In this document: piece by piece, positions 12,652 through 28,788 of the stretch | Layout of the letters: each line of letters starts with the position of its first letter | Numbering within the stretch: the first letter of the stretch is position 1 | Assembly: GCF_000214415.1 (NCBI RefSeq) | Contig: NC_015562.1 | Span: 1,403,130-1,467,129 of the forward strand | Source of the DNA: Methanotorris igneus Kol 5 | Lineage (GTDB): Archaea > AGJL01 > Methanococci > Methanococcales > Methanococcaceae | Reading direction: 5' to 3' | DNA length: 64,000 bases | Program-made: the position numbers and the translations under genes | Notes under the pieces: generated by a model | What the model saw: the letters and a program-made list of their open reading frames with translations, nothing else | The model's database searches: none | Told to the model about the DNA's origin: nothing

Positions 12652-13527
12652 ATGAAAATCATCCCAATTGCAAGTGAAAGTTTAGGAGTTAGGAGTTTAG
12701 CCACTTATGTTGAAACAGAAGATGTTAAAGTTTTAATAGACCCTGGTGTAGCAATAGCACCAAAGAGATATGGCTTACCCCCAAATGAAATAGAATTTGA
12801 GCAATTGAGAAAAATAAGGGAAAAATTAAATAATTTTGCCAAAGAATGTGACATTATAACCATCTCCCACTACCATTATGACCACTACACGCCATTTCAT
12901 GATGATGAGTACTTAGATTCAAAAGATTATGCAAAAACTCTCTACAAGGATAAAATTTTACTCATAAAACACCCAACAGAATTTATAAACCGAAGTCAAA
13001 TGAAAAGGGCAAAGGTTTTCTTAGAGAATGTCAAAAACATAGCAAAAGAAATAAACTATGCAGATAACAAAACCTTCCGCTTCAAAAATACCCAAATTAA
13101 ATTTTCTCCACCATTCCCACATGGAAAAGATGCTAAGTTAGGGTATGTTTTGCTAACAACTATAAAAGATAAAAACTTCACATTCCTCCACGCTTCTGAT
13201 GTCCAAGGAGTTATTTTTGATGAGTTAAAGGATTATATAATAAATGAATGCCCAGATTTAATAATAATGAGTGGTCCTCCAACTTATTTAATAAACAGAT
13301 TTGGAAAAGAGAATCTAAAAAAGGTAGATGAAAATTTAATAGACATATTAAAAAATACAGATGCACAGCTGATTTTAGATCATCACTTTTTGAGAGATAA
13401 AAACTACAAAGAAAAACTGAGTGTAGATTTTAAAACAATTGCAGAATATATTGGGGAAGAAAATTACTTATTGGAGGCATATAGGAAAGATATAAAAGAC
13501 GGAAAGCAAATAAACTTTAAACCTTAA
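12652..13527 (+). CDS. Metallo-beta-lactamase-fold protein, UPF0282 family
   Basis: This 291-residue cytoplasmic protein has the MBL metal motif HYHYDHY (in ITISHYHYDHYTPF, about residues 79-92), a late LDHHFLRD metal ligand segment and the family opening MKIIPIASESLGVRS. It matches the archaeal UPF0282 family, whose substrate is unknown. I chose the ATG at 12652 because GTGGGAG precedes it. Its 3' end overlaps the stop of the convergent CofE-like gene by 11 bases. Confidence 0.85.
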   Translation: MKIIPIASESLGVRSLATYVETEDVKVLIDPGVAIAPKRYGLPPNEIEFEQLRKIREKLNNFAKECDIITISHYHYDHYTPFHDDEYLDSKDYAKTLYKDKILLIKHPTEFINRSQMKRAKVFLENVKNIAKEINYADNKTFRFKNTQIKFSPPFPHGKDAKLGYVLLTTIKDKNFTFLHASDVQGVIFDELKDYIINECPDLIIMSGPPTYLINRFGKENLKKVDENLIDILKNTDAQLILDHHFLRDKNYKEKLSVDFKTIAEYIGEENYLLEAYRKDIKDGKQINFKP

Positions 13528-14377
13528 CAACAACAACGGGAGTATGTTCTAACTCCTCTAAAATCTCAATGGTAATTTCAAAGGTGTTATATTTCTTCAT
13601 AACATCGTGGATGGATTTCGTTGTTATGTGAGACCTATCTGCTAAATCCGCTATTTTTAATATCTTCTCTAATGGATATTTTTTATAAATCTCATTTCCA
13701 GCAATGGCTAATGGTGTAGCCCCAACTAATCCACCAACACCCAATCTTTTCCCAATTTTTCCAATAATATATCCCAAAACACCAATCCCGCTAATAATTC
13801 CATCGATTGCATAAGGAAGAGCGGTTACATACCACTTAAAAAACCTATACGTTGCATCGGTATCTACAACCATAACAACAACATCAACATCAAACTCCTC
13901 TTTTATTTTTTTATGTAATTTCTCTGCCCATTTTTTTGGTTCTTTTGGTAATAAAGAGGCATAACTTCCAGGAACATTTGTTAAATCAACCCCTCCCTCT
14001 GATGCAGGTTTTAAAGCATATATTAAACCAACATGGTCAATAACCACTTGTTTATGCCTCAACGTCTCTTTTTTTGGCATCTTTCTTAGGTTTTTTACTC
14101 TATCCTTTCTTGTTCCCAATAAAGGTCCTAAAATATAACCCCACAAATACTTTGACCAATAGTAGGTAAAGTATGCCCAAAATTTTGGTTTTACCTCCCT
14201 CTCATCAACAAAATTGTTCTCACTTGTTGAAACCATCTTCTCACTTAACACCACAAAGTCTCCATCATTTAATTTTATATTGCTATTTTTTAAACTTTCA
14301 ATGACTATTGGTATAAAGTTCTCTCCTGGTTTGATATATCTCGTTTTTATTGGATATGCTTTCATCATCTCAACCAT
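13517..14377 (-). CDS. CofE-like (F420-0:gamma-glutamyl ligase family) protein
   Basis: The protein is about 286 residues and related to coenzyme F420-0:L-glutamate ligase. It keeps the opening YPIKTRYIKPGENF, the acidic core DGDFVVLSEKMVSTSENNFVDERE, DVVVMVVDTDATYRF (about 163-177) and the glycine-rich GIGVLGYIIGKIGKRLGVGG. It differs from true CofE by an insert rich in aromatic residues (FWAYFTYYWSKYLWGYILG) and is probably a paralogue of unknown substrate. The start is uncertain: in-frame ATGs lie at 14413, 14377, 14368 and 14365, and the first would overlap the upstream gene. It follows the RNase J-like gene in the same operon. Confidence 0.75.
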   Translation of the reverse strand: MVEMMKAYPIKTRYIKPGENFIPIVIESLKNSNIKLNDGDFVVLSEKMVSTSENNFVDEREVKPKFWAYFTYYWSKYLWGYILGPLLGTRKDRVKNLRKMPKKETLRHKQVVIDHVGLIYALKPASEGGVDLTNVPGSYASLLPKEPKKWAEKLHKKIKEEFDVDVVVMVVDTDATYRFFKWYVTALPYAIDGIISGIGVLGYIIGKIGKRLGVGGLVGATPLAIAGNEIYKKYPLEKILKIADLADRSHITTKSIHDVMKKYNTFEITIEILEELEHTPVVVVKV

Positions 14378-14390
14378 AAATAATAAATTT

Positions 14391-15926
14391 TTAAATCTCC
14401 AAACTTTCTCCATTGTTTAATAAAACAACGCTCTCTCCAAAAGCCCATCTGAATAATTCAGGATTTTCAGTATGCACTGGAATTATGTAGTCAGGATCTA
14501 TCTTTTCAATAACCTCCCTCAGCCCTTCTTTTGAAATATGCCCTGATGTATGGAGTCCTTTTTCAAATATTGGTTTCCCATTTTCATCAACTTTAAAACC
14601 ATAAATTTCAAAGTTAAAGTGTTTAAGCCAATTCCACAATCTTAAAAAGCTAAACTCCTGCTCTTCCCCAAATGCCTCACTTGAAGAATAGATATAAATC
14701 CCCCCATCTGGATTAACATCCAATAGGTGTGGCATATCATAGAATGAGAAGCATAAAATATAGTTCTCACAATTTTCTCTAATTTCAAATGGAGAGATGA
14801 TATAATTACAATATAAGTCTAAAATCTCTTTTTCCCATTTCTGTTGAGTGGCTTTAAGATTTTCATAAATTTTTACATCATCATCAATTATATCAATATT
14901 AGCCACTTCTTTTAAAGCCCATAAGAAATAGGCGTCTTTTGTAGTTATAACCAATTCCCTGCCAGTTTTTTTAGCAATTTCTTTAAAAATTTCTAATCTT
15001 TCAAAATTTCTTGGTGAAAAATCAGCAATAACTAACCCTTTAGCATCTTCAATGATTTTTAAAGAGTTGTTATAAACATCCTCCTCACTAACATTGACAT
15101 CATTATCCCTATTAACTCTTGTCCCTTCTGTAATTAAAACACTTGCATTTTTAGCCTCTTTAATAAATTTTCTTGTTTTATTCTTATTTTTCCCATGTTC
15201 CCTAAAATCCCCTGTATATGCTACACTTACATCACCTTCAACAATATAACCAACAGCCCCATAGATTGAATGATCCACCTCAAATGCCTTAATTTCAAGT
15301 CCCAAGTCTTCTTCATATAGCGTTTTAACTTCATTTTGGTTAATTTTCTTCACTTTATTAGATGAGTTCTGCCCAGGTCTATAAAAGATAAATTCTTCAA
15401 TATTTTTATTGTCATCTGTAAGAATAATTTTTCTTGAACAGTAGGGGGATTTTCTATCTGATTCAAGAACATGGCCACTTTCATCTTTTGGTTTTTTTAT
15501 ACTATAGTAAGGCAAATCCATCCCTAAGTGTTTGCCAGTTGAAGTATCTCTTAATGCCTTTAGAATTGTCATTGTTATTGAAGATCCAACCATAGGAATT
15601 TCTTCATTGAGAATAGCAATGTTTCCAACATGGTCAAGATGAGCATGGCTTATTAAAACAGCATTAATAGGAATTTTTGGATACCTATAAATATCTAAAT
15701 CTTTGGGAATTAAATCACTTCTGTAAATGTTTAGTTTTGGTATTAAATTGAGATGCCACAAATCATAAATACCTCTTGCAGACCTTTCATTTAAATATTC
15801 CTCATAATATTTTGAGTAATTGGCAAAATTCATTCCAAAATCTAAAAATAGCCCATTATCTCCCTCTTTTATATAAATTTTATTTCCACCTATTGTATTT
15901 GCCCCATCATAGATGGTTATTTTCAT
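14391..15926 (-). CDS. RNase J/beta-CASP-like metallo-beta-lactamase protein
   Basis: This protein of about 511 residues has the MBL motif SHAHLDHVGNI (about residues 70-80), a second metal motif (VDHSIYGAVGYIVEGDVSVAYTGDF) and the C-terminal signature SGHISKEGLREVI...DYIIPVHTE found in RNase J and beta-CASP nucleases. It therefore probably acts on RNA or another phosphodiester. The middle region (about 120-200) is longer than in RNase J, and a Cys-containing insert (SPYCSRKI) is present. The ATG at 15926 follows GAGGGGGAAG and lies inside the end of the upstream membrane-protein gene, so the two are coupled. Confidence 0.8.
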   Translation of the reverse strand: MKITIYDGANTIGGNKIYIKEGDNGLFLDFGMNFANYSKYYEEYLNERSARGIYDLWHLNLIPKLNIYRSDLIPKDLDIYRYPKIPINAVLISHAHLDHVGNIAILNEEIPMVGSSITMTILKALRDTSTGKHLGMDLPYYSIKKPKDESGHVLESDRKSPYCSRKIILTDDNKNIEEFIFYRPGQNSSNKVKKINQNEVKTLYEEDLGLEIKAFEVDHSIYGAVGYIVEGDVSVAYTGDFREHGKNKNKTRKFIKEAKNASVLITEGTRVNRDNDVNVSEEDVYNNSLKIIEDAKGLVIADFSPRNFERLEIFKEIAKKTGRELVITTKDAYFLWALKEVANIDIIDDDVKIYENLKATQQKWEKEILDLYCNYIISPFEIRENCENYILCFSFYDMPHLLDVNPDGGIYIYSSSEAFGEEQEFSFLRLWNWLKHFNFEIYGFKVDENGKPIFEKGLHTSGHISKEGLREVIEKIDPDYIIPVHTENPELFRWAFGESVVLLNNGESLEI

Positions 15927-16236
15927 CTTCCCCCTCAAAGACATTTTTTAACTTTATTAATGAATTTCTTAATATTATTAATGCAATTGTTAATATAATT
16001 CCATCAATTGGAGCAAGAATTAAGATGATTATAAGAACTGGAAAGGCAATATACCAAAAGTACTTCCAAGTGACAATCTTAAAGATTAGGTATGCATAAG
16101 CCACTAAGAAGATAATAAAGGAAATTGCATAACATATTAAACCAAGGATTCCTTTAAGCCCAACCCCAATAAGTGTAAAAATAAACCCTACAAACACTAA
16201 AACTAAAAATTTAAATAAAGTTTTTAAAAATCCCAT
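15907..16236 (-). CDS. Multi-pass membrane protein of unknown function
   Basis: This 109-residue protein has about four hydrophobic helices (residues 4-24, 28-50, 58-75, 78-92) and a charged C-terminus ending FEGEDENNHL. I do not recognise it. It sits 6 bases after mcrC and overlaps the start of the RNase J-like gene by 20 bases, so it is part of a same-strand run from mcrB. The context does not show whether it belongs to the defence genes. Confidence 0.65.
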   Translation of the reverse strand: MGFLKTLFKFLVLVFVGFIFTLIGVGLKGILGLICYAISFIIFLVAYAYLIFKIVTWKYFWYIAFPVLIIILILAPIDGIILTIALIILRNSLIKLKNVFEGEDENNHL

Positions 16237-16242
16237 TTAGTT

Positions 16243-17466
16243 TCACCAAAATTTATTTAGCAATTTATCAATGGCATTTAAAAACTCCTCATCCATCTCA
16301 TTATTTTTTAATGTTTCAAGGTTATATACTAAGAGATAAAGCTCAGTTTCATCAAAGAACTTACAGTAATCAACATTTGTTTTGAAATTGTTATAATTTT
16401 TAAACTTTGGGAATATCAAAGCTGAAGGAACTTTATATTTTTTAGCATAAGTGTAAATTTGCCTAAGGATGTCTGGAGAAAGATTTTCTTCAATTTCTTT
16501 GTATTTTGCATCTAATACAAGCTTTACTTCTCCATTTTTATATACTATAAAGTCAGGTTTTTGTTTTATTTTATCTAAATATTTTGTTTCTTTAAGTAAA
16601 TTAAATTCTTCCTGATAGCCAATGGAAAATTTTCTTTTTAGTATGTTGCATATAAACCTCTCAAACAATTCATTCATATCTATGAAGAAACCAACATTAT
16701 CTTCCCCTCTAAGTTCTCCTAAGGAGGTTAGTACTATTTTAGCTAAATTAAAGGATTTTTTGAATCTATTGTTTAATCTTGTGAATTTAACCTTTTTAAA
16801 ATCTTCAACATTTATCTTTTTTAGTTCAATACCATCAAATATTAACATTAGTTCACTTAGATATTTTTTGTTTGTCCTTATTTTTGTTTTCCTTAAAGAA
16901 GTTGCAACTGCATAATAAAATATCTGATTCAATAAATTATTTTCATCAAATAAGAAATATTCAACAAAAAATCTATCTCTTTGATGAGGAAGTTTTCTTA
17001 TCTCCTTCTCAATCAACAACTTTCCTTTTAGAAATTTTTCTTCCCCTCTAATTTTAATATACTCCTTATAAATTCCTCTTTTTATTTCTTCCAATAGAGA
17101 TTTTGCAAATAGATAAATGAAAATTTCATAAAAGGCTTTTGATAGACTGTTTATTGCTCTAACTTCTTTCTCTTCTAATTTTAAATCAAAGGCAAAGTTA
17201 AGCATATTCAGGAAGAGATATTCTTTTTCTTCACTATTTTTAAAGATTTTTGGTAAAATTTGAATAGAAACATCTTTTATAGAAGCAAATCCAACATAAT
17301 TGTTGGCTTTTATTTTGTTATGGTAAAGGGTGAATATTTTATCTTCAGATCCACCATTTATTTTTTTAAATAAATTAAAAATTTCTTCTTTTTCATTTAG
17401 GTTTAGTTCATTCTTTAGCTCTTCTATATCTTTCTCCTGATATTCATAAAAAGTAATTAAATTCAT
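16243..17466 (-). CDS. mcrC: McrC-type restriction nuclease subunit
   Basis: This 407-residue protein is the partner of McrB in a type IV, modification-dependent restriction system. The N-terminal half is the McrC fold (FYEYQEKDIEELK at the start; VGFASIKDVSIQILPKIF). The C-terminal half has the PD-(D/E)XK nuclease signature KPDFIVYKNGEVKLVLDAKYKE (about residues 305-326), where D and DxK are the expected catalytic residues. The ATG at 17466 follows GTGATTGATT and nearly touches the mcrB stop, so the two genes are coupled. Family members need McrB GTPase activity to cut DNA. Confidence 0.88.
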   Translation of the reverse strand: MNLITFYEYQEKDIEELKNELNLNEKEEIFNLFKKINGGSEDKIFTLYHNKIKANNYVGFASIKDVSIQILPKIFKNSEEKEYLFLNMLNFAFDLKLEEKEVRAINSLSKAFYEIFIYLFAKSLLEEIKRGIYKEYIKIRGEEKFLKGKLLIEKEIRKLPHQRDRFFVEYFLFDENNLLNQIFYYAVATSLRKTKIRTNKKYLSELMLIFDGIELKKINVEDFKKVKFTRLNNRFKKSFNLAKIVLTSLGELRGEDNVGFFIDMNELFERFICNILKRKFSIGYQEEFNLLKETKYLDKIKQKPDFIVYKNGEVKLVLDAKYKEIEENLSPDILRQIYTYAKKYKVPSALIFPKFKNYNNFKTNVDYCKFFDETELYLLVYNLETLKNNEMDEEFLNAIDKLLNKFW

Positions 17467-17468
17467 AA

Positions 17469-19484
17469 TCAATCACTTAATATCTTATTGATAGCATTTT
17501 TGAACTCTTCTCCAGTTAACCTTTTTATTTCATAAGAGTTTTCCTTTTCCTCAATAAAATCTTTAAGAATCTCTTTTAATCCATCAACATCTCCATAGAA
17601 ATACTCCTCCAATAGTGGGATAATTTCATGATACCAAACAAACTCTAAATCTTCAAGAGTTTCAACACCTAAGAAATATGAATGCCCTATCCTATGGTCT
17701 CTATCTTTTAATTTCATGAGTTTTTCATTTAGAGATTTTAATAACTCTGCTAAATTAATTCCTTCAATTTGTTTATTTTTAGCATTATTCTCAATTAGTT
17801 CATAATTTGGCTCAACTTCTAAGAATCCAAACCTTCTCCTTAAAGCAATATCTAATAATGCTATACTCCTATCTGCAGTGTTCATAGTTCCAATTATATA
17901 TAGATTTGGAGGGACTGCAAAAGGCTCTTTTGAATAAGGTAACTCAACAATAATTTCATTGTCCTCACTTAGCCTCTTATCTTTCTCTAAGAGAGTTATT
18001 AACTCCCCTAAGATATTGGAAATATTCCCCCTGTTTATCTCATCTATTACTAAATAGAACTTTTGAGCATTTTGGAAATCTTCTTTTTTAAAGACATTTT
18101 TTGTTTCTTTATGTTCTTTGAGTTTTTCAATGACTATTTCTTTTATGGTTTCATAGTTAGGATTATATTCTAATTTTTCATTTTGAGAGTCTTTTATATT
18201 ATTGTTGATTATTTCTTTTAGTTCTTTATATAATGCAAAGTAATAGGAATCATAACTAGTATGCCTTATTTTATCATTTACATCTTTTGGACCGTTTATT
18301 CTTTCACCTTCAATTAAATCCTTTTCGAACATGTCCTTTAAAAATGGAATATTTAACGGGTAATATTCATTTACACTTTCATTTGGTTTTATTAATATAT
18401 TCGAGATTTTTTCGTTTTTGTATTTATAATCAAGTATTTTGAATTTTTTACCCATTTTAGTTTTTAATACACTACCAACAGGATATTTATCTTCAAATTC
18501 CTTTAAAGCTTTATCTAACAACCTATCTAAATCTATTTCCTTTTTAATATCTTCTTTATCTTTTAGAGCTTCCCAAATTGCTAAAATACACATTTTTTTA
18601 AATATTCCATCCTCAACTTCATAAGTTATATTTCCATCTTCAGTTGTTTTTGGCTTAAGTCCTTCTATAAAATCTTCATAGGAGTAAGATTGATGGAAAG
18701 TTATAAATTTATAATATCCTTTACCCTCTACATATTTTAAAGCTGAATGTGTTTTCCCTGTCCCTGGAACTCCATATAATATTATCTGCCTCTTTTTATC
18801 TAAGATTTTGTCCATTTTTTCTTTTATTTCTGGTGGAACAGTATTGGAGTCACTTATTATATTATTACTAGTACTATTTTTAGAATTATTAGGTTTGGGT
18901 ACTTCTCCATATTCATATAAAGCATAAGAAGTTTTGATACTATCCTCAATATTTCTTACATTTTCTGAAATTTTCTTAAATACATTGATAGCATCTTCAT
19001 AATTTCCTTTTGCACCTGCAAGATGGATATTCACTAAACCTAATTTTTCAATAGCATCTGATATTTTATGATTTAGGGGTATGAACCATTCAGGTTTTAA
19101 AATATGTCCTAATGTAGAAACCACAGTTATACTGGCAGATTTTGTACCTTTATCAGATAAGAGGTTCTTGAAAGCATTATATGCATCATCCTTAGTTTCT
19201 GCTGATTTTACATTTCTAATAAATTCTATTAATTTTTCTCTTGTAGGCTCATCTCTCAGAGCTTGTGAAAAATTTGATGGAAATCCAGTTTCTATATAAC
19301 ATATGCTTGTTGCTTTACCTACAATATCTCTCCAACCTTCATCATATTTTTTATTCTTCAATTCATCTAACTTTTCAACCAATTCATTTTTAATACTCTT
19401 AAGAATTTCTTTAATTTCTTCAACTTTATTTTTATCAATATTTCCATATTTTTTAATAATTTCTTCAAGATTTGTAATTTCCAT
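17469..19484 (-). CDS. mcrB: McrB-type GTPase of a modification-dependent restriction system
   Basis: This protein of about 671 residues has an N-terminal DNA-recognition-type region (about 1-190, with GWRDIVGKATSICYIETGFP) that is not the classical DUF3578 domain of E. coli McrB. After a Ser/Asn-rich linker comes the McrB AAA+ motor: Walker A YGVPGTGKTHSALKY (about residue 238), FHQSYSYEDFIEGLKP, Walker B LVIDEINRGNISNILGELI, sensor MNTADRSIALLDIALRRRF. I preferred the ATG at 19484 because AAGGCGATA precedes it. McrC follows at once. The N-terminal domain probably sets which modified base is recognised. Confidence 0.88.
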   Translation of the reverse strand: MEITNLEEIIKKYGNIDKNKVEEIKEILKSIKNELVEKLDELKNKKYDEGWRDIVGKATSICYIETGFPSNFSQALRDEPTREKLIEFIRNVKSAETKDDAYNAFKNLLSDKGTKSASITVVSTLGHILKPEWFIPLNHKISDAIEKLGLVNIHLAGAKGNYEDAINVFKKISENVRNIEDSIKTSYALYEYGEVPKPNNSKNSTSNNIISDSNTVPPEIKEKMDKILDKKRQIILYGVPGTGKTHSALKYVEGKGYYKFITFHQSYSYEDFIEGLKPKTTEDGNITYEVEDGIFKKMCILAIWEALKDKEDIKKEIDLDRLLDKALKEFEDKYPVGSVLKTKMGKKFKILDYKYKNEKISNILIKPNESVNEYYPLNIPFLKDMFEKDLIEGERINGPKDVNDKIRHTSYDSYYFALYKELKEIINNNIKDSQNEKLEYNPNYETIKEIVIEKLKEHKETKNVFKKEDFQNAQKFYLVIDEINRGNISNILGELITLLEKDKRLSEDNEIIVELPYSKEPFAVPPNLYIIGTMNTADRSIALLDIALRRRFGFLEVEPNYELIENNAKNKQIEGINLAELLKSLNEKLMKLKDRDHRIGHSYFLGVETLEDLEFVWYHEIIPLLEEYFYGDVDGLKEILKDFIEEKENSYEIKRLTGEEFKNAINKILSD

Positions 19485-19503
19485 TACTATCGCCTTAATC
19501 ATT

Positions 19504-19523
19504 TATAGTTGCGAATTTTTTAA
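19504..19523 (+). repeat. Fragment of the TATAGTTG...GCGAATTTTTTAA repeat
   Basis: The sequence TATAGTTG-CGAATTTTTTAA just upstream of mcrB matches the terminal repeat found at 56207 and 58505 except for a four-base deletion. The rest of the 170-base gap between mcrB and the helicase gene is A/T-rich spacer with no gene. Confidence 0.4.
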
Positions 19524-19654
19524 ACTTATTTATATATTAATGAATTTAAATAATTTTTATTCTTAAGGGTGGTGCATAATTTATACATCTAAATTTATGT
19601 CCTAACAGCTCTTATTTACCTAATTATTAATTAGTATTAATAAGGAAAGGAATA

Positions 19655-22600
19655 CTAAATTTCTACTAATTCTAACAATATTTTTATTTTCTCTTCAACA
19701 CAATTCAAATCCTCTGGAGTGGAGATAATAACTACTTTCTCATCTAACTTAGCATTATCTATATCTCCTAATTTGATTATCTTATATCCCTCTTTTTTAT
19801 AAATTTCCTCTTTCTCTCTCTGTCTAAGTCTATAATCTAAGCTATCCACGCCATAATGTTCCCATAGAATTTCTTTATCTCCTAAGCATAGTTTAAAGTC
19901 TGGTAAAACTCCCAATTTTAAATACTCAGAGATTGGCTCATATTCATATTCTATTCCTAACTTATGAAAAATATCTGCCAACTTCTTCTCATCTTCACTC
20001 CTAACCTTTTCTCCTCTCTCAGTTTCTATAGCTCTCTCTTCATAAAAAGGAATTAAAGAGTCAATATCAAAATTGTCAAATAAATTAGTTTTTCTATTTC
20101 TTAACTCCGAGTTATAGACATTAATTAAATTCTCTAAACTCTCTTCAACAATTATCCATAATCTTTTTTTAGCCCTTGTTACTGCTGTATAAAGCATTTC
20201 CTTTGAGACAAATTTGTTTAATCCTTTAGGAATAGCAACTATTATATTTTCAAAACCACTACCTTGGCTTTTGTGTATGGTTATGGCATAGGCATGTTCT
20301 ATATTATCATCACTAACATATACATAAGGTCTTCTTTCATTTTCATCAGAATAGAATTTTATTGCATATTTTTTATAATTTTTATTGTAGAAATATACAT
20401 AACCCATCATCCCATTATAAATCCCTTTTTTGTACTTATTTTTAGTCTGAATAACTTTATCAGCTACATACTTATTTCCATAGAACAAATTTAATTTCAT
20501 TTTGTCTCTATATTTTTCAGGGACAAACTTTGAATCTTGCCTTATATAGAGGTTAATTATGTAAGAGTTTAGCTCTCCCTTTGTTTTTGTTGGAGATAGG
20601 ATCTCTAACTTATCATCAAATACAGCAAATTCAAAGAAATTATCTTTGCTGTTCTCCTCCAATATTTTCTCTATAGCATCTTCTAAAGCTTTTAATAAAT
20701 TATCTTTAACAACTTCAATTGTTATAACCTCTTTCTCTCCATCTCTTATTCTATAAATTTCTTTATTATCTAAAACTTCTTTTTCTTTTAATAACTCCTC
20801 TAACTTAATCTTTCTTTCTTCTCCATCCATTAAGAATATTTCTGAAAACTCAGCAATTTTCTTAGATTCAGATCTTAGTGGAATCTCTAATTTTGCTATA
20901 GCATCTTTATTAACCCTCTCTAAGTATCTGTAAATATCATGGAATGGCTTTCCAGCATCTACTGGGGGTAGTTGGTTAATGTCTCCAACAAATACCAGAT
21001 GCTTCTCTATATCAACACATTTAAATAAATTCCCTAATATTTTAGTGTCTATCATAGAGCTCTCGTCTAATATTAGGACATAGACCTTTTTCTTTGCATT
21101 TTCTGGAACATCTCTCAATACAAAGAAATCAAAATTAAAATAATCACTAAATTCTTGGGCTATAAATCTATGGATAGTCATTACTTTGACATTATTTATT
21201 TTCTTCTCCTTTAATTTCTCTCTAATAACCATTGCTGATTTTCCAGTAGGAGTTAGGATATAGATATCCTCATAACCATATTTATCCTTTAAAATTTTTA
21301 CTAAAGTAGATATTACAGTTGTTTTCCCTGTTCCTGCTGGGCCAGTTAAAATGCCAACTCTATTTTTTAATAGCTTTTCAACAGCTTCTATTTGCATTTC
21401 TATAGCTTTCTTATAATCTTCATCTTCTTTTTTCTCATTTCTCAAAAGCTTTTCTATTTCCTCTTTACTAACCCTAAGTTCTTCTTTTGGTTTATCAAGC
21501 ATTTTATTAATAGTTTCTTCTATAACCCTCTCACTTTCTTTTATGTCTTTTAAAGTAAACAATTTTACTTTCTCATTTCCAATAATCTTCTCCTCAATAA
21601 CTACTTTCTCTTTTATAATTTCCTCATTCTTCTCAATCATCTCTAAAAATTCTTTAAAGCTAATGTCTACCCCAATTTTATCAAAAATATTTTTAACCTC
21701 TCCAGTAGTTACTGTTGTATGCCCGTGCTTTAGTAGCCTCTTTAAAATCTCAACTAATAAAGCTCTTATCCTGTAAGGGTTATGTTTATCAAAATCTTTA
21801 ACTCTCCTCTGTTCCCAGGAATCTACTTCAATAAAACTAAATCCAGAAAAATCTTCCTTCTCTTTTAAATCTTCAACTAAGACATAGGGATTTTCTAAAA
21901 TTTCCTCTAAGCTAATGAATCCTTTTTTTATTTGTTCCTTTATTATTTTAATGTCATAAGCCATTAAATCATAGTACACTGCATAGTTTAATAAGAATTC
22001 TTTAAACTCATTTTTAAAGTCACTGTTCTCTTTTCTTTTTTCTAAACTCTCTTTTAATTCCTTATAAAGCTCCTCTTCTTTATTACTCTCAACAGCTTCA
22101 AAATATTTTGAATAAGCTTCTTTATCACCTAAATAGTATATCACTGCTGGCAATCCAGGGTATTTGTATTCTCTACCCTCTAATTCACTGATAACATTTT
22201 TTATTCTATCTAAAAACTTATCAAAATCCTTCATTACCCATGGCCTAAAAGCTTTATTTCCTTTTAGATACTCCATAAAGTCTGGATATTCCTCAATAAA
22301 TTTATTAAATCCTTCTAAAATTTCTATAGCTTTTTTTAATATTTCTATTAGGGTTTTATCAGTTATAATATTACACATCCCTCTAAAGTACCTACTGAAA
22401 TCTTCAACATCAAAAACAACTAAATGTTCAAACTCTTTATAGTCTAAATTTTTATCTTTACAAAACTCTATAAACTCCTGATAAGGTAGAGTAAATACAA
22501 TATCCTCTAAATCAAAGTCTATTTCAAAACCTAATTTGTTCTTATTTTTTTCATCTTTATTTATTATTTCTTTAATCTTTACACAGCCAATTATAACCTT

Positions 22601-22960
22601 ATTATCAGACAAAGGATTTTCTCTCACATGTATAACAGTGTATTTTCCTTTAACATAATCCAATATTTCCTTAAACCTTTCAACATTTGAGAATAATAAT
22701 GTTGGAATTCTACCAACTCTATTTCCTCCCTCTTTAATTACATTATTATTCTCAATGAACATTACTGATTCATGGCATGGCATTCCTTTAGGGATAGTGC
22801 TAATGACTCCTGAAGGGTTGTTTAAGCATAATTTTGAATTATATTTATTAAATTTTACATACTTAAAGCTTTCACAGTATCTATTCTCCTCTGGCTTTCT
22901 ACAAAATCTACCATTCCATCCTGAGTCATGCCAAGCTACTAAAGAAACTAAGTTCTTCAT
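19655..22960 (-). CDS. RecD-like helicase with N-terminal WHDSGWNG domain and C-terminal nuclease-like domain
   Basis: This 1101-residue protein combines three parts. An N-terminal region has the motif WHDSGWNGRFCRKPEENRYC (about residues 10-29) and further cysteines. The centre is a superfamily 1B helicase of RecD type: Walker A TGPAGTGKTTVIS at about 540, LILDESSMID, FVGDINQLPPVDAG, ITIHKSQGSGF, TAVTRAKKRLWI. The C-terminal 90 residues carry a PD-(D/E)XK-like pattern (LPDFKLCLGDKEILWEHYG, then REKEEIYKKEGYKII). The ATG at 22960 follows GGTGAT. It ends an operon with the 173-residue and TPR genes, and the architecture suggests DNA processing against foreign DNA. Confidence 0.82.
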   Translation of the reverse strand: MKNLVSLVAWHDSGWNGRFCRKPEENRYCESFKYVKFNKYNSKLCLNNPSGVISTIPKGMPCHESVMFIENNNVIKEGGNRVGRIPTLLFSNVERFKEILDYVKGKYTVIHVRENPLSDNKVIIGCVKIKEIINKDEKNKNKLGFEIDFDLEDIVFTLPYQEFIEFCKDKNLDYKEFEHLVVFDVEDFSRYFRGMCNIITDKTLIEILKKAIEILEGFNKFIEEYPDFMEYLKGNKAFRPWVMKDFDKFLDRIKNVISELEGREYKYPGLPAVIYYLGDKEAYSKYFEAVESNKEEELYKELKESLEKRKENSDFKNEFKEFLLNYAVYYDLMAYDIKIIKEQIKKGFISLEEILENPYVLVEDLKEKEDFSGFSFIEVDSWEQRRVKDFDKHNPYRIRALLVEILKRLLKHGHTTVTTGEVKNIFDKIGVDISFKEFLEMIEKNEEIIKEKVVIEEKIIGNEKVKLFTLKDIKESERVIEETINKMLDKPKEELRVSKEEIEKLLRNEKKEDEDYKKAIEMQIEAVEKLLKNRVGILTGPAGTGKTTVISTLVKILKDKYGYEDIYILTPTGKSAMVIREKLKEKKINNVKVMTIHRFIAQEFSDYFNFDFFVLRDVPENAKKKVYVLILDESSMIDTKILGNLFKCVDIEKHLVFVGDINQLPPVDAGKPFHDIYRYLERVNKDAIAKLEIPLRSESKKIAEFSEIFLMDGEERKIKLEELLKEKEVLDNKEIYRIRDGEKEVITIEVVKDNLLKALEDAIEKILEENSKDNFFEFAVFDDKLEILSPTKTKGELNSYIINLYIRQDSKFVPEKYRDKMKLNLFYGNKYVADKVIQTKNKYKKGIYNGMMGYVYFYNKNYKKYAIKFYSDENERRPYVYVSDDNIEHAYAITIHKSQGSGFENIIVAIPKGLNKFVSKEMLYTAVTRAKKRLWIIVEESLENLINVYNSELRNRKTNLFDNFDIDSLIPFYEERAIETERGEKVRSEDEKKLADIFHKLGIEYEYEPISEYLKLGVLPDFKLCLGDKEILWEHYGVDSLDYRLRQREKEEIYKKEGYKIIKLGDIDNAKLDEKVVIISTPEDLNCVEEKIKILLELVEI

Positions 22961-22979
22961 CTCTATCACCTCAACCTAA

Positions 22980-23501
22980 TTAATTTTTTAAATATTTCAT
23001 TATTCTATCTTCTAAAACATGAATTTCCTGTAAAAATCTTTTACTTCCAATTTCTTTCCTTTCTCTACCATTATTGCCCTTCTTTACCCAACCCATTTGG
23101 CTAAATCTAATTTTAATTCTCCTATCAGATATTACCATTTTACCATCAACATAAACTTTAAAGAATGGAGCATTTTTAAAACCAGATTTTTTATATAACT
23201 CTATCTCAAAATTATTTAGGAAATAATTAAATTTCTCTTTCAACTTACCATCTATTTTTTGATAAACTCTAGCTAACGCTATTGTTAGAGTATCAACAAT
23301 TATTTTGTCATTAACTTCAACTCCAACAATCATTTCTTTTTCATCTTCAACTATACTACTATCTAACACTTCATCAGACAAATCTAAATCTTTTACTTCT
23401 TCAAATTTTTTAATAATATATCTTTTAACTTCATCATCATTATTAATAACAAAAATTCTCTTTTCACTTTCAATTTTTTCTAATATACTTTCATTTGCCA
23501 T
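22980..23501 (-). CDS. Uncharacterised 173-residue protein in the helicase operon
   Basis: I do not recognise this protein. It is highly charged, with an acidic N-terminal half (DEVKRYIIKKFEEVKDLDLSDEVLDSSIVEDEKEM) and a basic C-terminal half (RRIKIRFSQMGWVKKGNNGRERKEIGSKRF) that could contact nucleic acid. No membrane segment or metal motif is visible. The ATG follows a strong GGGGGGAGGAC site. The helicase-nuclease gene starts 19 bases after it, so the two are probably co-translated and work together. Confidence 0.7.
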   Translation of the reverse strand: MANESILEKIESEKRIFVINNDDEVKRYIIKKFEEVKDLDLSDEVLDSSIVEDEKEMIVGVEVNDKIIVDTLTIALARVYQKIDGKLKEKFNYFLNNFEIELYKKSGFKNAPFFKVYVDGKMVISDRRIKIRFSQMGWVKKGNNGRERKEIGSKRFLQEIHVLEDRIMKYLKN

Positions 23502-23555
23502 AATGTCCTCCCCCCATAGTTTTTTTAAGTGAAATACTTTTTTACCATACTTTTT

Positions 23556-23639
23556 TTATATATATTCCATAAAATCTTTCCAAAGTTTTAATCTTCTTTT
23601 TAATTCTGGGATTTTATTTTCTATAATTTTAACTGTCAT
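23556..23639 (-). CDS. 27-residue ORF overlapping the TPR gene stop
   Basis: The peptide MTVKIIENKIPELKRRLKLW... (27 residues, ending FMEYI) starts at an ATG that overlaps the TGA of the TPR gene (ATGA). It predicts a basic amphipathic helix. It may be a small partner protein or the start of a truncated gene. There is no separate ribosome site, so translation would depend on the upstream gene. Confidence 0.35.
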   Translation of the reverse strand: MTVKIIENKIPELKRRLKLWKDFMEYI

Positions 23640-25552
23640 TTCCTATCATTCCTTCTTCTTACATACTCAACTACTTTTACAACATCCTCTAAGAGCGTAC
23701 TACATTCCTCCAATCCCTCAGGTACTTTATACTCCTCCCCACTTAGTATTGAAAGTAAAGCATCAGTTAGTGGCCACTCACTACGGTCAATTAGATCAAG
23801 AAACTTTTTAGCCTCTTCGACTGTCAAATTTCCCCCAACTAAGTCAAGGGCTACTTTTAAAGCATAAATATCAGTATTTACATCTCCGGTCATTTTTATT
23901 ATTCTATCAATATCTTCATTGTATAGCGTCACATGTCCAAACTCATGTTGGGTTTTGTAGTGAATACAAATTGACTTTATCATGCATCTAACTGCATCCC
24001 TCTTTTTTCCTAAATCTGCATAAGTTAGGGCTAAATTGTGCATTATCAAACCTTTCTCCTTTGGGGTCTTTGCATATTCTAAAGCCTTTTTAAGTATAGG
24101 CAAAGCTTCCTCAGAACGGTTCATCTCATAATAATGAGTACCTAAGTTGTTTAAGGTTATTGAATGAAACTTAGGAACTATTCCAAGTTTTATGGCTTTT
24201 TCATTAAACTCAACAGCCATTTTTAGATACTTCTCAGCCTCTTCAGGATAGTTTTGCTGTGGAGAATAAATCAGTGAAACTGATGTTGCAATATCAGAAG
24301 CCCTTATGTAATATTTCGCTGCCAGTTTTTTGTAAACTGGAAGTTTTGCATTTTCAAAAATTTCGTATATTTTCCTTAAAAATTCATCGCTACTAAATTT
24401 TTCATGCTCTTTTTCATAATACTCAGCTATGCTAATAAGTAGTTTTAAATATCCATCTGCATAGATGGTTTTTTCCTTTTCCCAAGCGCTTTCATACGCA
24501 TTTATGAGTTCATCTAAATCTTCCTCAGAGAATCCCTTTTCAAAAAATTCTTCAACTGTAATTCCTTCTGGTTTAACGAGCTGTTTAAGGTCTATTTTTT
24601 TACGTTCTTTTTTACGTTCTTTCTTTTCATTCTTTTTATTTCTGTCTTTTTTGAATTTAAACTCCATACCATAATATAACGCTCCATAAACCTCATGATA
24701 AATACCTAACTCAGAAGCTATTCTTTCTAATGTATTTACTAACTTATAGTTCAGCTCATTCCCATAGTTTGCTTTTATGTAACTTTCCACTTCAAAAGTA
24801 TCTATAATCATACGATTCAAAATTGGCATCTCATGTTTTCTTTCATTAATCACCTTACACAACTTCTCACATAATTTTCCATATTTTTCTAATATCTCTT
24901 CATCTTCATATTTATTCGGTTTTTTCTCATAGTATTCAGCAACACTTATGAGTAATTTTGCGTATCCATCTGCATAAAGTGTTTTTTCCTTTTCCCAAGC
25001 GCTCTCATACGCATCTATGAGTTTATCTAAATCTTTCTCGGAAAATCCTTTTTCAAAAAATTCTTCAACTGTAATTCCTTCTGGTCTAACATTCAATGGA
25101 TTTAGCATATAATTACATATTCTTTCAGCCTTTTCACAAATAGGTCTCAAAACCTTCCAATATGTTAGTTTTCTATTTTTTTCCTTTTGTTTAAATTCTT
25201 CTAAATTTACTTCATATTTTCCATCAGAGTTTATTTTAACCAATCTGCCTGTAATCTCCTCTAATGTCTGCTCTAAGGGACACCATACCATAGAACTTAC
25301 CATTTTTTCATACTTGTCCTTTTCTACAAGATATATGCAGTAAAGGAAAGCCCTTAGTTCTTTTATACTCACTCCATCAGCATATCCTGCGTATTGTTGA
25401 AGATAATATATAACCGTGGCTATCATTGGACGCCTTCTAACAGATGCAAAATTGCCCCAATCCATACATTTATCTGATTCTCTAAGTTTTTTAAGACAGT
25501 TTTCAATTTCATCTTTTCTTTGCTCGTAGAGTTCCATTAAAGGGGTTTTCAT
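23636..25552 (-). CDS. TPR-repeat protein with an internal domain duplication
   Basis: This 638-residue helical protein has no recognised enzyme motif. Residues 157-210 and 328-381 are nearly the same sequence (GITVEEFFEKGFSE.DLD.LI, AYESAWEKEKT.YADGY), so a unit of about 171 residues has been duplicated, with a Lys/Arg-rich linker (about 301-323) before the second copy. TPR repeats follow (AEKYLKMAVEFNEKAIKLG, ITLNNLGTHYYEMNRSEEAL, LIMHNLALTYADLGKKRDAV, about 430-530). The ATG follows GGGGTGG. It heads the operon with the 173-residue protein and the helicase-nuclease, suggesting a sensor or scaffold role. Confidence 0.72.
   Translation of the reverse strand: MKTPLMELYEQRKDEIENCLKKLRESDKCMDWGNFASVRRRPMIATVIYYLQQYAGYADGVSIKELRAFLYCIYLVEKDKYEKMVSSMVWCPLEQTLEEITGRLVKINSDGKYEVNLEEFKQKEKNRKLTYWKVLRPICEKAERICNYMLNPLNVRPEGITVEEFFEKGFSEKDLDKLIDAYESAWEKEKTLYADGYAKLLISVAEYYEKKPNKYEDEEILEKYGKLCEKLCKVINERKHEMPILNRMIIDTFEVESYIKANYGNELNYKLVNTLERIASELGIYHEVYGALYYGMEFKFKKDRNKKNEKKERKKERKKIDLKQLVKPEGITVEEFFEKGFSEEDLDELINAYESAWEKEKTIYADGYLKLLISIAEYYEKEHEKFSSDEFLRKIYEIFENAKLPVYKKLAAKYYIRASDIATSVSLIYSPQQNYPEEAEKYLKMAVEFNEKAIKLGIVPKFHSITLNNLGTHYYEMNRSEEALPILKKALEYAKTPKEKGLIMHNLALTYADLGKKRDAVRCMIKSICIHYKTQHEFGHVTLYNEDIDRIIKMTGDVNTDIYALKVALDLVGGNLTVEEAKKFLDLIDRSEWPLTDALLSILSGEEYKVPEGLEECSTLLEDVVKVVEYVRRRNDRK
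24410..25084 (-). repeat. Internal duplication in the TPR gene
   Basis: The blocks 24923-25084 and 24410-24571 encode copies of one 54-residue segment with few substitutions, and the DNA is also alike (for example TTCAAAAAATTCTTCAACTG occurs in both). The rest of the duplicated unit has diverged. Confidence 0.7.
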
Positions 25553-25817
25553 TAATAACCACCCCTATTAAAATTATTTAAAACTTAGTTTCATTGGAAA
25601 TATTTTCTCCAAAGTCTATACCCCCTATCATAACTGAAATTAAAGATAAATACTCTTCTATCGGATTTTATACACTGGTTTCTTTAATACAACTTAAAGA
25701 AGCACCTACTTTCCTTTTTATACGGTTCAATAAATAAAATCTCCTCTTTAAACTTTTTAACAATATTATATCGCCTAATTTTTTAAAGGTTCCACAATGT
25801 CATCCCCCAATTTATTT
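25553..25817. other. Spacer with no supported gene
   Basis: These 265 bases lie between the TM2 gene and the TPR gene. Short minus-strand stretches of codons exist, but none has both a start and a ribosome site. I see no structured RNA or repeat here. Confidence 0.4.
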
Positions 25818-26108
25818 TTATTTTTCACTAAAAATCACGGAATAAAGTCTTGCATTGTAGTCCTTTGCAGATTTGTAGGCAACATAAATCCCATAAATGT
25901 ATGGTATGAGAAAAAACCAAAATGTTAGTAATATTATTATACCTTTCCCAACTTTTCCAAGATACATTTGTCCTGCTCCAGGTATTAAGGCACTAAGCAA
26001 TACAGCAATTCCCACACTCTTCTTTTTCTGCTCATAATAGACAATTCTCTGTGTTTTATCCATATCCTTTACAAACTCTTTAATCTGCATAAATTCTGTT
26101 TCATCCAC
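25818..26108 (-). CDS. TM2-domain membrane protein
   Basis: This small membrane protein of about 96 residues has a charged N-terminus (VDETEFMQIKEFVKDMDKTQRIVYYEQKK) followed by a TM2 domain: helix 1 with ALIPGAGQMYLGKVGKG, a turn, and helix 2 IIILLTFWFFLIPYIYGIYVAYKSAKDYN. The function of TM2 proteins in archaea is unknown. I chose the GTG at 26108 because GGGGGGT lies six bases before it, whereas the ATG at 26123 has no ribosome site. It follows the amidotransferase gene on the same strand but is separated from the TPR gene by a spacer. Confidence 0.75.
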   Translation of the reverse strand: MDETEFMQIKEFVKDMDKTQRIVYYEQKKKSVGIAVLLSALIPGAGQMYLGKVGKGIIILLTFWFFLIPYIYGIYVAYKSAKDYNARLYSVIFSEK

Positions 26109-26139
26109 TCTATTACCCCCCATATTTTGAATTCTCTAA

Positions 26140-27186
26140 TTATGACCATCTCAACTCCTTAAGTTTTTTATCAATCTCTGCCCTCCTCTCTGGTTTAGTA
26201 TAAAATGTTGCCTCCAAATCATTCCAATCAACAGTATCTCTACCATCTTGCTTAATGTACTCCTTATCTAACAAACTTCTAATCCCAATTTTTACAACAG
26301 ACTCATCATACTCAATATTTTGAGGTAAATCATTAAGATTTTTAATAATATCCCTTAAACTAACCCTGTGTGGACTTTCTCTAAGAATCTTTAATATTTT
26401 CAATTCCAAATCACTCAATCTCTTATTGGAATAAATCATTTCCCCATTTTTAAACACTATAAGCTCCCCATTCTTAAAAGGTTGCCAATTTTCATTAGTT
26501 AGTGGATTTGTGGCTATTATGAATCCTTCTTCTTTTGGATTTTTTATATCCCCTAAATTTACAGTATAATCTTCATCTATTAATTTAATTGGTTTATAGG
26601 GCGGCGTTCTCTTTAAGAAATATAAATTTCTCCTTCCTTCATAATCTTTATAAGCAAACAAATATTCCCCATCAGAAAACAGGCAATTAAATGGACCACA
26701 AGAGTTAATCTCATAAAGTATATCTAATAGAGCATCAAATCCCTCCCCGCCCCATTCAATTTTATTATTTTTAATTTGGGACAACAAATAGCAGAATGCA
26801 TATTCTGAATCTGTTTCTCCGATTGGGTAGAATTCATCAAGTTCTAAATCCCAATAATCATATAAAGTGCCATTGTGGGCAAAAACTATTTCTTTATCAC
26901 CTAATTTTCTAACAAATGGATGTGTATTGACATAAGACACTTTTCCAGCACTGGCTTTCCTTATATGGGCAATGAATATCTTTGATTTTATATTGATCCA
27001 TCTAACACACTTGGCTAATAAAGCATCATTCATTTTAATTGGCTCTTTTATTACTCTAACAAACTCATCTGGATAGAATGCAATCCCCCAACCATTTGGG
27101 TGCATATTACTTCTCTGCTTAAAGCTATTCAGAGATAACCCAACATTAACTTTCTTATTAAAACAAATTCCCAATAATTCACACAT
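26140..27186 (-). CDS. Class II glutamine amidotransferase-like protein
   Basis: The 348-residue protein begins MCELLGICFNKK, so Cys2 is the N-terminal nucleophile after Met removal. It has the family motifs HPNGWGIAFY, FIAHIRKASAG, THPFVRKLGDKEIVFAHNGTL and GETDSEYAFCYLL, as in YafJ/EgtC-type glutaminases. The last 90 residues look like a winged helix (LSDLELKILKILRESPHRVSLRDIIKNL), which is unusual and suggests DNA or RNA contact or regulation. It starts 2 bases after the gamma-glutamylcyclotransferase stop, so the two form an operon around glutamine or gamma-glutamyl chemistry. The physiological substrate is unknown. Confidence 0.82.
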   Translation of the reverse strand: MCELLGICFNKKVNVGLSLNSFKQRSNMHPNGWGIAFYPDEFVRVIKEPIKMNDALLAKCVRWINIKSKIFIAHIRKASAGKVSYVNTHPFVRKLGDKEIVFAHNGTLYDYWDLELDEFYPIGETDSEYAFCYLLSQIKNNKIEWGGEGFDALLDILYEINSCGPFNCLFSDGEYLFAYKDYEGRRNLYFLKRTPPYKPIKLIDEDYTVNLGDIKNPKEEGFIIATNPLTNENWQPFKNGELIVFKNGEMIYSNKRLSDLELKILKILRESPHRVSLRDIIKNLNDLPQNIEYDESVVKIGIRSLLDKEYIKQDGRDTVDWNDLEATFYTKPERRAEIDKKLKELRWS

Positions 27187-27188
27187 AT

Positions 27189-27551
27189 TTACCCCTCATA
27201 GTAGTCTTTATAATCCCCAGATTTTACTAAAGTTCCATAAGGTTCAGGATAAAAGTATAGCCAAGCCTCTATCTCTTCCCCATTTTCTAAGATTATTGGG
27301 ACTTTCTTCCTTTTATAGTGGTAAGGATGTCCTTCAAGAGCATCTATCCTTTCTAAGGTCTCTTCATCAACCTCATACACCTCCCCAACTATATGAGATA
27401 CCTTTTCATCTTCCACAACATAGGGGATTATATCAGCATACATAGCATATTTTTCTTTAGTTTTTCCTTTTCCAATGAATTTGGAGTTTTTTAATAACCT
27501 ATTGTTCCATAAGCCCCTCCTTAAAGTTCCATAAACAAAAACATATTCCAT
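27189..27551 (-). CDS. Gamma-glutamylcyclotransferase (AIG2/GGCT-like) protein
   Basis: This 120-residue enzyme-like protein has the GGCT fold motifs VFVYGTLRRGLWNN (residues 4-17), the glutamate-containing DALEGHPYHYKRKKV (about 72-86, catalytic Glu expected here) and AWLYFYP. Members cyclise gamma-glutamyl groups to release pyroglutamate. The ATG at 27551 follows GGTGA. It lies immediately before the class II amidotransferase on the same strand and diverges from the CARF-like regulator. Confidence 0.83.
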   Translation of the reverse strand: MEYVFVYGTLRRGLWNNRLLKNSKFIGKGKTKEKYAMYADIIPYVVEDEKVSHIVGEVYEVDEETLERIDALEGHPYHYKRKKVPIILENGEEIEAWLYFYPEPYGTLVKSGDYKDYYEG

Positions 27552-27684
27552 AATTTTCACCATTCTAAAATGTCAAAAATATATGGTGAAATATATAAAA
27601 TATAATATTCACTATATTAGTAAGCTTACCATACTTACTATTCTTATTATTCTTATTATTATTAATGTTAATTGTGGTGAAACA

Positions 27685-28659
27685 ATGGATGAGGTAGGTA
27701 AAATCAGAGGAGGAGTTCATATAGCAGTTCAAGGATATGAAGTTGATAGAATCACTGAAGTTCCAATTAAAAGAAGGGCTGAAAAAGTTTATTTAATTTG
27801 TATGCCAGAGGAAGAAGATTCAGAAAGAGGAAAAGAATTTAAAAATATGATTATAGAAAGATTTGAGAAAAATAAAATTGATTATGAAATCCTTGAGGCT
27901 AATATATTTAATTTGGATGAAATTGCTAAGAAAATAAAATATGCAATAAATAAAGAAAGAAAGGAATTTGAAGAGGTTAAATTTTATATAAATGTCTCCT
28001 CTGGCTCTACAATTGGATGCATTGCTGGAATAACATGTGCAATGATTTTAAATAAAGAAAACTCAAAAATAATTCCATATTATGTAATTCCAAAAAAACT
28101 ATTAGATAGTTTGAGTGATGAAGAATGTAAAAAGTTGAAGGAAGAATATAAATATCTCCCAAGAAGTTTTGGAGTTAAGAATGTATTATTAATTTATCCA
28201 TTTAATATAAGCCTCCCAAGGGAAGAGTTGTTAATATTTTTAAAATTCATTAATAGGGCAGGAGATAGAGGATTAACTATAAAGGAGTTAAGCATCTTAA
28301 CAAGGGAAGAATTTTTAGATGTAAATTTAAATAATGAAGAGAGTATAAGGAGATTAATTAAAGCCATTGAACATATAAACTCAAATCCTTCAAGAATTAG
28401 AATTGAGAGATATAAAAGAACTATTCAAAAATTATTAGAGATAGTTGGGGATGATAAAGAGGAGCTAAATAAGATTGTCAATTGGAGAAATAGAACAAAA
28501 TTCTCAGAAAATAAAACTCCACAAAGTGATCTTGTCTGGGTTAATAAGAATGTTGTAGAAAAACTTAAGGAATTTGAGTTAATAGTGGATGAGAAAATAG
28601 GAAGGTCAAGATATATTAAAGTAAGTGAGAAAGGGAAAATGTTGCTAAATTATATTTAA
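27685..28659 (+). CDS. CARF-like domain winged-helix regulator (HFX_2341/DUF6293-like)
   Basis: This 324-residue protein has an N-terminal Rossmann-like domain (GGVHIAVQGYEVDRI at residues 8-22; then FYINVSSGSTIGCIAGITCAM at about 104-124) of the kind found in CARF and DUF6293 regulators that sense nucleotide ligands. Two C-terminal winged-helix-like regions follow (DRGLTIKELSILTREEF and a final KVSEKGKMLLNYI). I chose the ATG at 27685 because GGTGAAAC precedes it; the upstream hydrophobic extension has no ribosome site. No CRISPR array or cas gene is visible, so it is an orphan regulator. The downstream two-gene nuclease cassette may be its target. Confidence 0.75.
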   Translation: MDEVGKIRGGVHIAVQGYEVDRITEVPIKRRAEKVYLICMPEEEDSERGKEFKNMIIERFEKNKIDYEILEANIFNLDEIAKKIKYAINKERKEFEEVKFYINVSSGSTIGCIAGITCAMILNKENSKIIPYYVIPKKLLDSLSDEECKKLKEEYKYLPRSFGVKNVLLIYPFNISLPREELLIFLKFINRAGDRGLTIKELSILTREEFLDVNLNNEESIRRLIKAIEHINSNPSRIRIERYKRTIQKLLEIVGDDKEELNKIVNWRNRTKFSENKTPQSDLVWVNKNVVEKLKEFELIVDEKIGRSRYIKVSEKGKMLLNYI

Positions 28660-28788
28660 ATTATACACCATTACATCCTTTTTTTCTTTCAATAACTTTA
28701 TTAAAGATTTTTGTAAATCTTGTGGCAAAAATTAAAATAATGTTAAAATAAAACCATCCAAATAAAAATGATATGAACAGTGGTTCTT

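Follow-up and report, generated by a model that had tools for sequence, protein, structure and literature searches.

EVE and YTH domains are known to serve McrB and modification-dependent nucleases as specificity modules (PMC7641849, PMC7897488), and the PDC families of candidate defence proteins derive from a guilt-by-embedding screen, most of them being unvalidated (PMC12988326). Here, we describe a helicase-nuclease gene from Methanotorris igneus Kol 5, a member of the Methanococcota with a single-contig genome of 1,854,197 bp, which lies in an island of McrBC (type IV restriction) genes. The DNA analysed, called the window below, is a stretch of 64,000 nucleotides of this contig, and the positions at issue are 19655–25552, for which an earlier reading of the sequence alone (the sequence-only reading) had proposed a defence operon of a tetratricopeptide repeat (TPR) protein, a 173-residue protein and a helicase-nuclease. 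By its profile matches, the helicase belongs to the already catalogued PDC-S68 candidate defence family. We consider it fairly probable that it is a DNA-targeting defence protein of the restriction type that works alone, that its gene entered an already existing McrBC island by shuffling, along with a short McrB-related gene, and that the TPR and 173-residue genes are part of the variable McrBC side, which sets specificity, and do not belong with the helicase.

Family and domains of the helicase

The helicase gene and its domains are as follows.

19655..22969 (minus): PDC-S68 helicase-nuclease; PADLOC PDLC05065, 410 bits; 57% identical to the homologue from a Methanocaldococcus jannaschii-like genome (G028)
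22325..22960 (minus): N-terminal WHDxxW[ND]GxxCxxP/Cys domain, residues 4–215; candidate PUA/EVE-like sensor
20135..21397 (minus): SF1B RecD-type helicase core, residues 525–945; AAA_19 6.6e-30, UvrD_C_2 8.8e-15; all motifs present
19658..20032 (minus): C-terminal PD-(D/E)XK-like domain, residues 980–1104; PADLOC HEAT_CxxC_PDDEXK match at 979–1077

The open reading frame (ORF) encodes 1104 residues from a GTG and 1101 residues from the ATG at 22960; in the alignment this ATG coincides with the start of the G028 homologue, and it is probably the true start. The PDC-S68 profile PDLC05065 matches residues 159–1068, with the N-terminus matched separately, and the three PDC-S68 models score the protein at 409.7, 361.4 and 335.5 bits, whereas the typeIV_RecD profile reaches 141 bits, far below the PDC-S68 score. 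The sequence-only reading could not match its gene set to a named system; this is superseded for the helicase by the assignment to PDC-S68, itself only a catalogued candidate, and no paper naming PDC-S68 was found in the literature search. PADLOC matches to GajB, MkoA and others were set aside as being due to the common helicase core and not to membership.

Pfam places AAA_19/AAA_30, HHH_RecD2 and UvrD_C_2 in the helicase, with Walker A/B and HKSQG conserved in the core, and the family-invariant residues of the N-terminal, helicase and nuclease parts are all kept in the window protein. The two flanking domains that had been described from the letters, with WHD/Cys at the N-terminus and a PD-(D/E)XK-like domain at the C-terminus, coincide with motifs that are present and conserved in the family. 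Across 66 homologues W13, H14, D15, W18, G20, C23, P26, N29, C32 and C65 are invariant, and the motif derived here from the PDC-S68 family, WHDxxW[ND]GxxCxxPxxN..C, is intact in the window protein. At the other end, E994, P1023-D1024-F1025 and W1036-E1037-H1038-G1040 are ∼86–95% conserved in the same homologues; the profile of the C-terminal domain has a weak alignment to T7 endonuclease I (E 0.4), and TPD, DrmE_C and DUF790 are among its weak Pfam matches. The C-terminal domain is likely to be a PD-(D/E)XK-like nuclease that does without the usual third-motif lysine.

Structure prediction of the N-terminal domain, which the sequence-only reading had proposed, gave an AlphaFold2 model of the first 345 residues with a predicted local distance difference test score (pLDDT) of 82.8 and a predicted template modelling score (pTM) of 0.84, and this model yielded weak fold matches to the PUA superfamily. 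Of the compact alignments among the top 50 against the PDB, most are with PUA-like modified-base readers and their relatives: 1zce (probability 0.47), 2gbs, the SRA domains of UHRF1/2 and SUVH5/6/9, YTH, an ASCH protein and Lon N-domains. We take 1zce and 2gbs to be EVE domains. The viral fold library gave no significant match and the sequence profile of the domain gave no match in the PDB; two family members have weak LON_substr_bdg matches. Compared with a profile built from 20 EVE domains, the N-terminal profile scores 24.6 (E 0.0047), with SLVFFYAK..NP..VLVGVGRI aligned to GDLVFFYHS...IVGIAEV, whereas the controls all score lower: the best of 200 column shuffles reaches 20.9, none of ten decoys from unrelated families exceeds 19.1, the reversed profile scores 12.7 and segments of the helicase outside the N-terminal region stay at or below 14.2.

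These comparisons suggest a PUA-like relationship, to be treated as a lead and not as proof. As EVE and YTH domains are already in use in McrB and in modification-dependent nucleases, a PUA-like sensor would fit the McrBC setting. We raise tentatively, and would not yet count on it, that throughout the PDC-S68 family the N-terminal domain is a modified-base reader of the PUA superfamily (EVE/YTH/SRA-like) carrying an extra invariant WHD/Cys segment, possibly metal-binding. If so, PDC-S68 proteins would act as modification-dependent restriction machines in a single chain, with a RecD motor as their basis. No description of this architecture was found in the literature searched, and modified-base reading would offer a testable idea for the front domain of a widespread uncharacterized candidate family. 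We propose that the protein would be loaded onto foreign DNA by its N-terminal Cys/WHD domain, which may be a PUA/EVE-like sensor of modified bases or of DNA form, that the RecD-type motor would then translocate along and unwind the DNA, and that cutting would fall to the PD-(D/E)XK-like domain at the C-terminus; sensing, DNA cleavage and antiviral function are all predicted activities of the helicase.

Distribution and neighbours of the helicase

Because control genomes also match through the RecD core, the helicase was scored as present only if a match took in its N-terminal motif or ran over its full length. It occurs in seven of the 36 Methanococcota genomes, and some copies are damaged, by stop codons in G022 and by a frameshift in G026. 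The helicase is therefore not a housekeeping gene, and the universal occurrence that the sequence-only reading had named as evidence against defence was not found. As a scan of the genome contigs with the single helicase sequence gave no confirmed relative, the motif W-H-D-x-x-W-[ND]-G-x-x-C-x-x-P was scanned as a DNA pattern over the contigs, where it matched 116 stretches of bacterial and archaeal DNA. Among the 80 of these that were listed, many bacterial phyla and some archaea are represented, the complete ORFs are mostly ∼1200–1300 residues long and the architecture is unchanged, with the helicase and the WEHxG C-terminus.

The 106 flanking proteins of the genome-contig homologues, taken without a matched background, include five Methylase_S (type I specificity) and three HipA matches and single matches to AbiEii, HsdM, YhcG, AIPR and MutH, which suggests an enrichment of defence families around the bacterial PDC-S68 helicases. 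No recurrent or fixed partner gene was found among these 106 proteins, and the McrB and McrC references had no match at the bacterial helicase loci. In the Methanococcota, McrC is found in ten of the 36 genomes and coincides with the helicase in G000 and G022; in both the two genes are at most ∼10 kb apart, for which a rough chance estimate is (20 kb/1.8 Mb) × (20 kb/1.5 Mb), or ∼1.5e-4. The other five helicase-bearing genomes have no McrC. This proximity in both double carriers, taken with the absence of McrC elsewhere, indicates that the helicase favours restriction islands but does not depend on McrBC.

In G022 (L017:1-12164) the order is McrB, McrC, a TmtA-like ATPase, a TmtA/MkoA-like SF1 helicase and PDC-S68, all in one direction; a Tiamat-like protein is split over two ORFs inside this McrBC island, in which the PDC-S68 gene is the stop-damaged copy.

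The RecD2-type core (TIGR01448, 267 bits) would also suit a chromosomal repair or recombination enzyme of the RecD2 kind that lies near McrBC by chance. However, the protein scores below the curated cut-offs for both RecD2 (500) and RecD (TIGR01447, 191 bits against 310), it carries additional N- and C-terminal domains, its distribution is sporadic with damaged copies and it is linked to McrBC in each of the two genomes that have McrC as well, all of which make a repair enzyme improbable. The defence interpretation of the sequence-only reading holds as far as a sporadic, defence-type helicase-nuclease beside McrBC is concerned, but not as a single three-gene module.

Assembly of the McrBC island

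The remaining features of the window that bear on the island are as follows.

22980..23501 (minus): 173-residue protein; residues 97–136 resemble part of the G029 McrB N-terminal region
23556..23639 (minus): 27-codon ORF, an mcrB remnant (recombination scar) at the stop codon of the TPR gene
23636..25552 (minus): TPR protein, 638 residues, with an internal duplication; TPR_10/TPR_12
25109..25468 (minus): N-terminal domain of the TPR protein, residues 29–148; a stand-alone gene elsewhere
24397..24577 (minus): 181-nt repeat in the TPR gene, copy 1
24910..25090 (minus): 181-nt repeat in the TPR gene, copy 2, 84%
25645..25731 (minus): possible decayed fragment of a 173-residue-like gene; weak
17469..19502 (minus): McrB GTPase; AAA_5, PRK11331; N-terminal ∼219 residues unlike the G031 relative
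16243..17472 (minus): McrC nuclease; PF10117, 216 bits, 9.7e-64
15907..16236 (minus): small membrane protein; relatives of 37% and 36% in the G029 and G001 islands
14391..15944 (minus): beta-CASP metallo-beta-lactamase (MBL), RNase J-like; McrBC-associated
25818..26123 (minus): TM2-domain protein; PF05154
26140..27186 (minus): class II glutamine amidotransferase (GATase); PF13230, 7e-83
27189..27563 (minus): gamma-glutamylcyclotransferase (GGCT); PF06094, 3.3e-29
27583..28659 (plus): divergent CARF-wHTH (HFX_2341-like) regulator; PF19810, PADLOC CARF3, 418 bits

The adjacency to McrBC noted earlier is upheld, with McrB and McrC on the same strand as the helicase, and the TPR, 173-residue and helicase ORFs are all intact on the minus strand at the positions first assigned to them. 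The 27-codon ORF, which had been counted beside these three genes as an overlapping ORF and shares 4 nt with the stop end of the TPR gene, does not stand as a gene: 61 of 69 nt (88%) equal the inside of mcrB from G031, a genome of another Methanococcota family, and 54 of 62 nt equal G001 mcrB, in frame. By this likeness it is a recombination scar, and an in-frame mcrB remnant after the TPR gene implies that an mcrB reading frame once followed that gene; the 173-residue gene and the helicase now lie between the remnant and the present mcrB.

Chimeric junctions are also shown by comparison with the island of G031. This island is 92.8% identical in DNA to window positions 14390–18845 and 94.9% identical to 26138–28664, sharing McrC, beta-CASP, GATase, GGCT and CARF genes, whereas the intervening 7.3 kb of the window (McrB N-terminus, helicase, 173-residue, TPR and TM2 genes) is replaced by 1.9 kb with a different McrB N-terminus, the DNA identity in the window mcrB beginning at 18845. 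Together with the mcrB scar, this replacement argues that the PDC-S68 gene was shuffled into the McrBC island, and the specificity domains of McrB appear from these alignments to be swapped. Behind the same GATase–TM2 pair, two unrelated genes (278 and 374 residues) accompany the M. jannaschii-like helicase in the place of the TPR and 173-residue genes, and in G029 and G001 these two genes adjoin McrBC with no helicase between them and McrB.

As a separate observation, the G031 McrB N-terminal region (L190:5577-8594), which differs from that in the window, matches PADLOC PDC-S02 at 59 bits. Across the two Methanococcota families, L190:2882-11658 and window positions 14390–28664 have 93–95% DNA identity, which suggests a very recent horizontal exchange of the island.

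The TPR gene contains a 181-nt direct repeat with 84% identity between its copies, and the TPR Pfam matches fall at residues 465–531 of the protein, which is 65% identical to a protein from Thermococcus barophilus plasmid pTBMP1 and 62%/56% identical to a protein from a Thermococcales chromosome. Residues 29–148 correspond to a stand-alone gene of ∼140 residues directly before mcrB in G124 (L188:9437-9853, by McrB/McrC) and to one flanked in G142 by the MBL and an mcrB fragment (L189:9485-9916). In the 173-residue protein, residues 97–136 are 49% identical over 41 residues to the G029 McrB N-terminal region (E 6e-6), the only convincing relative among plasmids, phages, viral contigs and 297 genomes; an AlphaFold2 model from a two-sequence alignment (pLDDT 70, pTM 0.69) gave no meaningful fold match. 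Positions 25645–25731, interrupted by a stop codon, are 44% identical to the 173-residue protein over 32 residues; this match is weak (E 0.001 over the 360-bp stretch, 0.37 over the window), and the positions are possibly a decayed fragment of a similar gene. On the Thermococcales plasmid and chromosome, the TPR gene and an ADP-ribosylglycohydrolase gene are linked (L187:8945-11549, L182:7900-10413).

The sequence-only reading had taken the three genes as one antiviral module. In such a module, a TPR sensor and the 173-residue protein as a small adaptor would serve the helicase-nuclease as effector. The shared strand, the tight spacing, with 10 nt between the 173-residue gene and the helicase, and the G-rich ribosome-binding-like sequences before the TPR and 173-residue genes speak for such a dedicated system. 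However, neither the TPR nor the 173-residue gene occurs in any of the six other helicase-bearing Methanococcota genomes, a fixed partner is not seen in bacteria, the Thermococcales TPR gene is tied to McrBC, MBL or ADP-ribosylglycohydrolase genes without this helicase, and the mcrB scar separates the TPR and 173-residue genes. As the three genes were not found together in other genomes, an outcome that the sequence-only reading had itself named as speaking against the set, they are not a conserved unit; a dedicated module is unlikely, and the apparent operon is a by-product of island shuffling. A further alternative, an accessory of McrBC that would for example degrade DNA after McrBC cleavage, draws on the distance of at most 10 kb to McrC in both double carriers and on the syntenic island slot of the helicase in the M. 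jannaschii-like genome, but is quite improbable with five of seven Methanococcota carriers lacking McrC and bacterial loci lacking any match to the McrB/McrC references.

Several points weigh against the helicase being a stand-alone restriction-type defence protein with an N-terminal sensor. PDC-S68 is an unvalidated defence candidate, the antiviral and nuclease activity of the helicase is a prediction, and the third nuclease motif is E-x-H-like (WEHxG), with no lysine at the expected place of E-x-K. The fold search of the N-terminal domain against the PDB gave no match at E ≤ 0.001, its matches being individually insignificant, no PUA-family Pfam match is significant and the EVE profile match is weak (E 0.002–0.005 for one comparison). 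The helicase lies away from McrBC in four Methanococcota genomes, and the 10-nt gap would fit co-expression with the 173-residue gene in the window.

Among the neighbouring genes, the beta-CASP MBL adjoins McrBC in four Methanococcota genomes (the others being G001, G029 and G031), lies beside an mcrB fragment in the Thermococcales genome G142 and is also present in the pTBMP1 island (L044, L182, L189, L190, L193); no paper holding both 'McrB' and 'beta-CASP' was found in the literature search. The class II GATase is found in Methanococcota and Thermococcales McrBC/MBL islands and GGCT in most of them (L182:6585-7897; L191:11284-11910), and a gamma-glutamyl ligase-like gene lies beside the window MBL (13517–14413), so that gamma-glutamyl chemistry in defence islands is possible. 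The divergent CARF-wHTH regulator (HFX_2341-like, DUF6293) is 91% identical in G031, and cyclic-nucleotide-linked regulation of the island is likewise possible.

Comparison with described systems

In conclusion, the unassigned 'operon' is resolved into parts with different histories, and the 69-bp mcrB scar and the sister island provide direct DNA evidence of cassette swapping in the restriction islands of hyperthermophilic archaea, affecting specificity and effector cassettes and including exchange with Thermococcales. The helicase resembles PDC-S68 in its nearly full-length profile match, its N-terminal motif and its combination of a helicase with a C-terminal PD-(D/E)XK-like domain, but lacks ∼100–150 residues of the usual length, mainly in the region ahead of the helicase core, and lies inside an McrBC island. 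With RecD2 and RecD it shares the SF1B core, HHH_RecD2 and UvrD_C_2, but it falls below their curated cut-offs and has the N-terminal Cys domain and the C-terminal nuclease domain. McrBC (16243–19502) shares the island and strand of the helicase, and its McrB N-termini vary as specificity domains do, but the helicase is not part of McrBC, having a RecD-type motor instead of an AAA+ GTPase and a nuclease in its own chain. The island of pTBMP1 likewise brings together TPR (65%), beta-CASP MBL (69%), GATase (36%), GGCT (40%) and McrB-like genes, but has DUF2357 instead of McrC, an ADP-ribosylglycohydrolase and, in the stretch examined, no PDC-S68 helicase. As in the PUA-sensor restriction enzymes (EVE-HNH VcaM4I, PMC7897488; EVE/YTH-McrB, PMC7641849), a possible PUA-like N-terminal domain and a nuclease would be joined in one chain, a likeness drawn from weak fold and profile signals, whereas here the sensor would sit on a RecD-type helicase and carry an invariant Cys/WHD segment.

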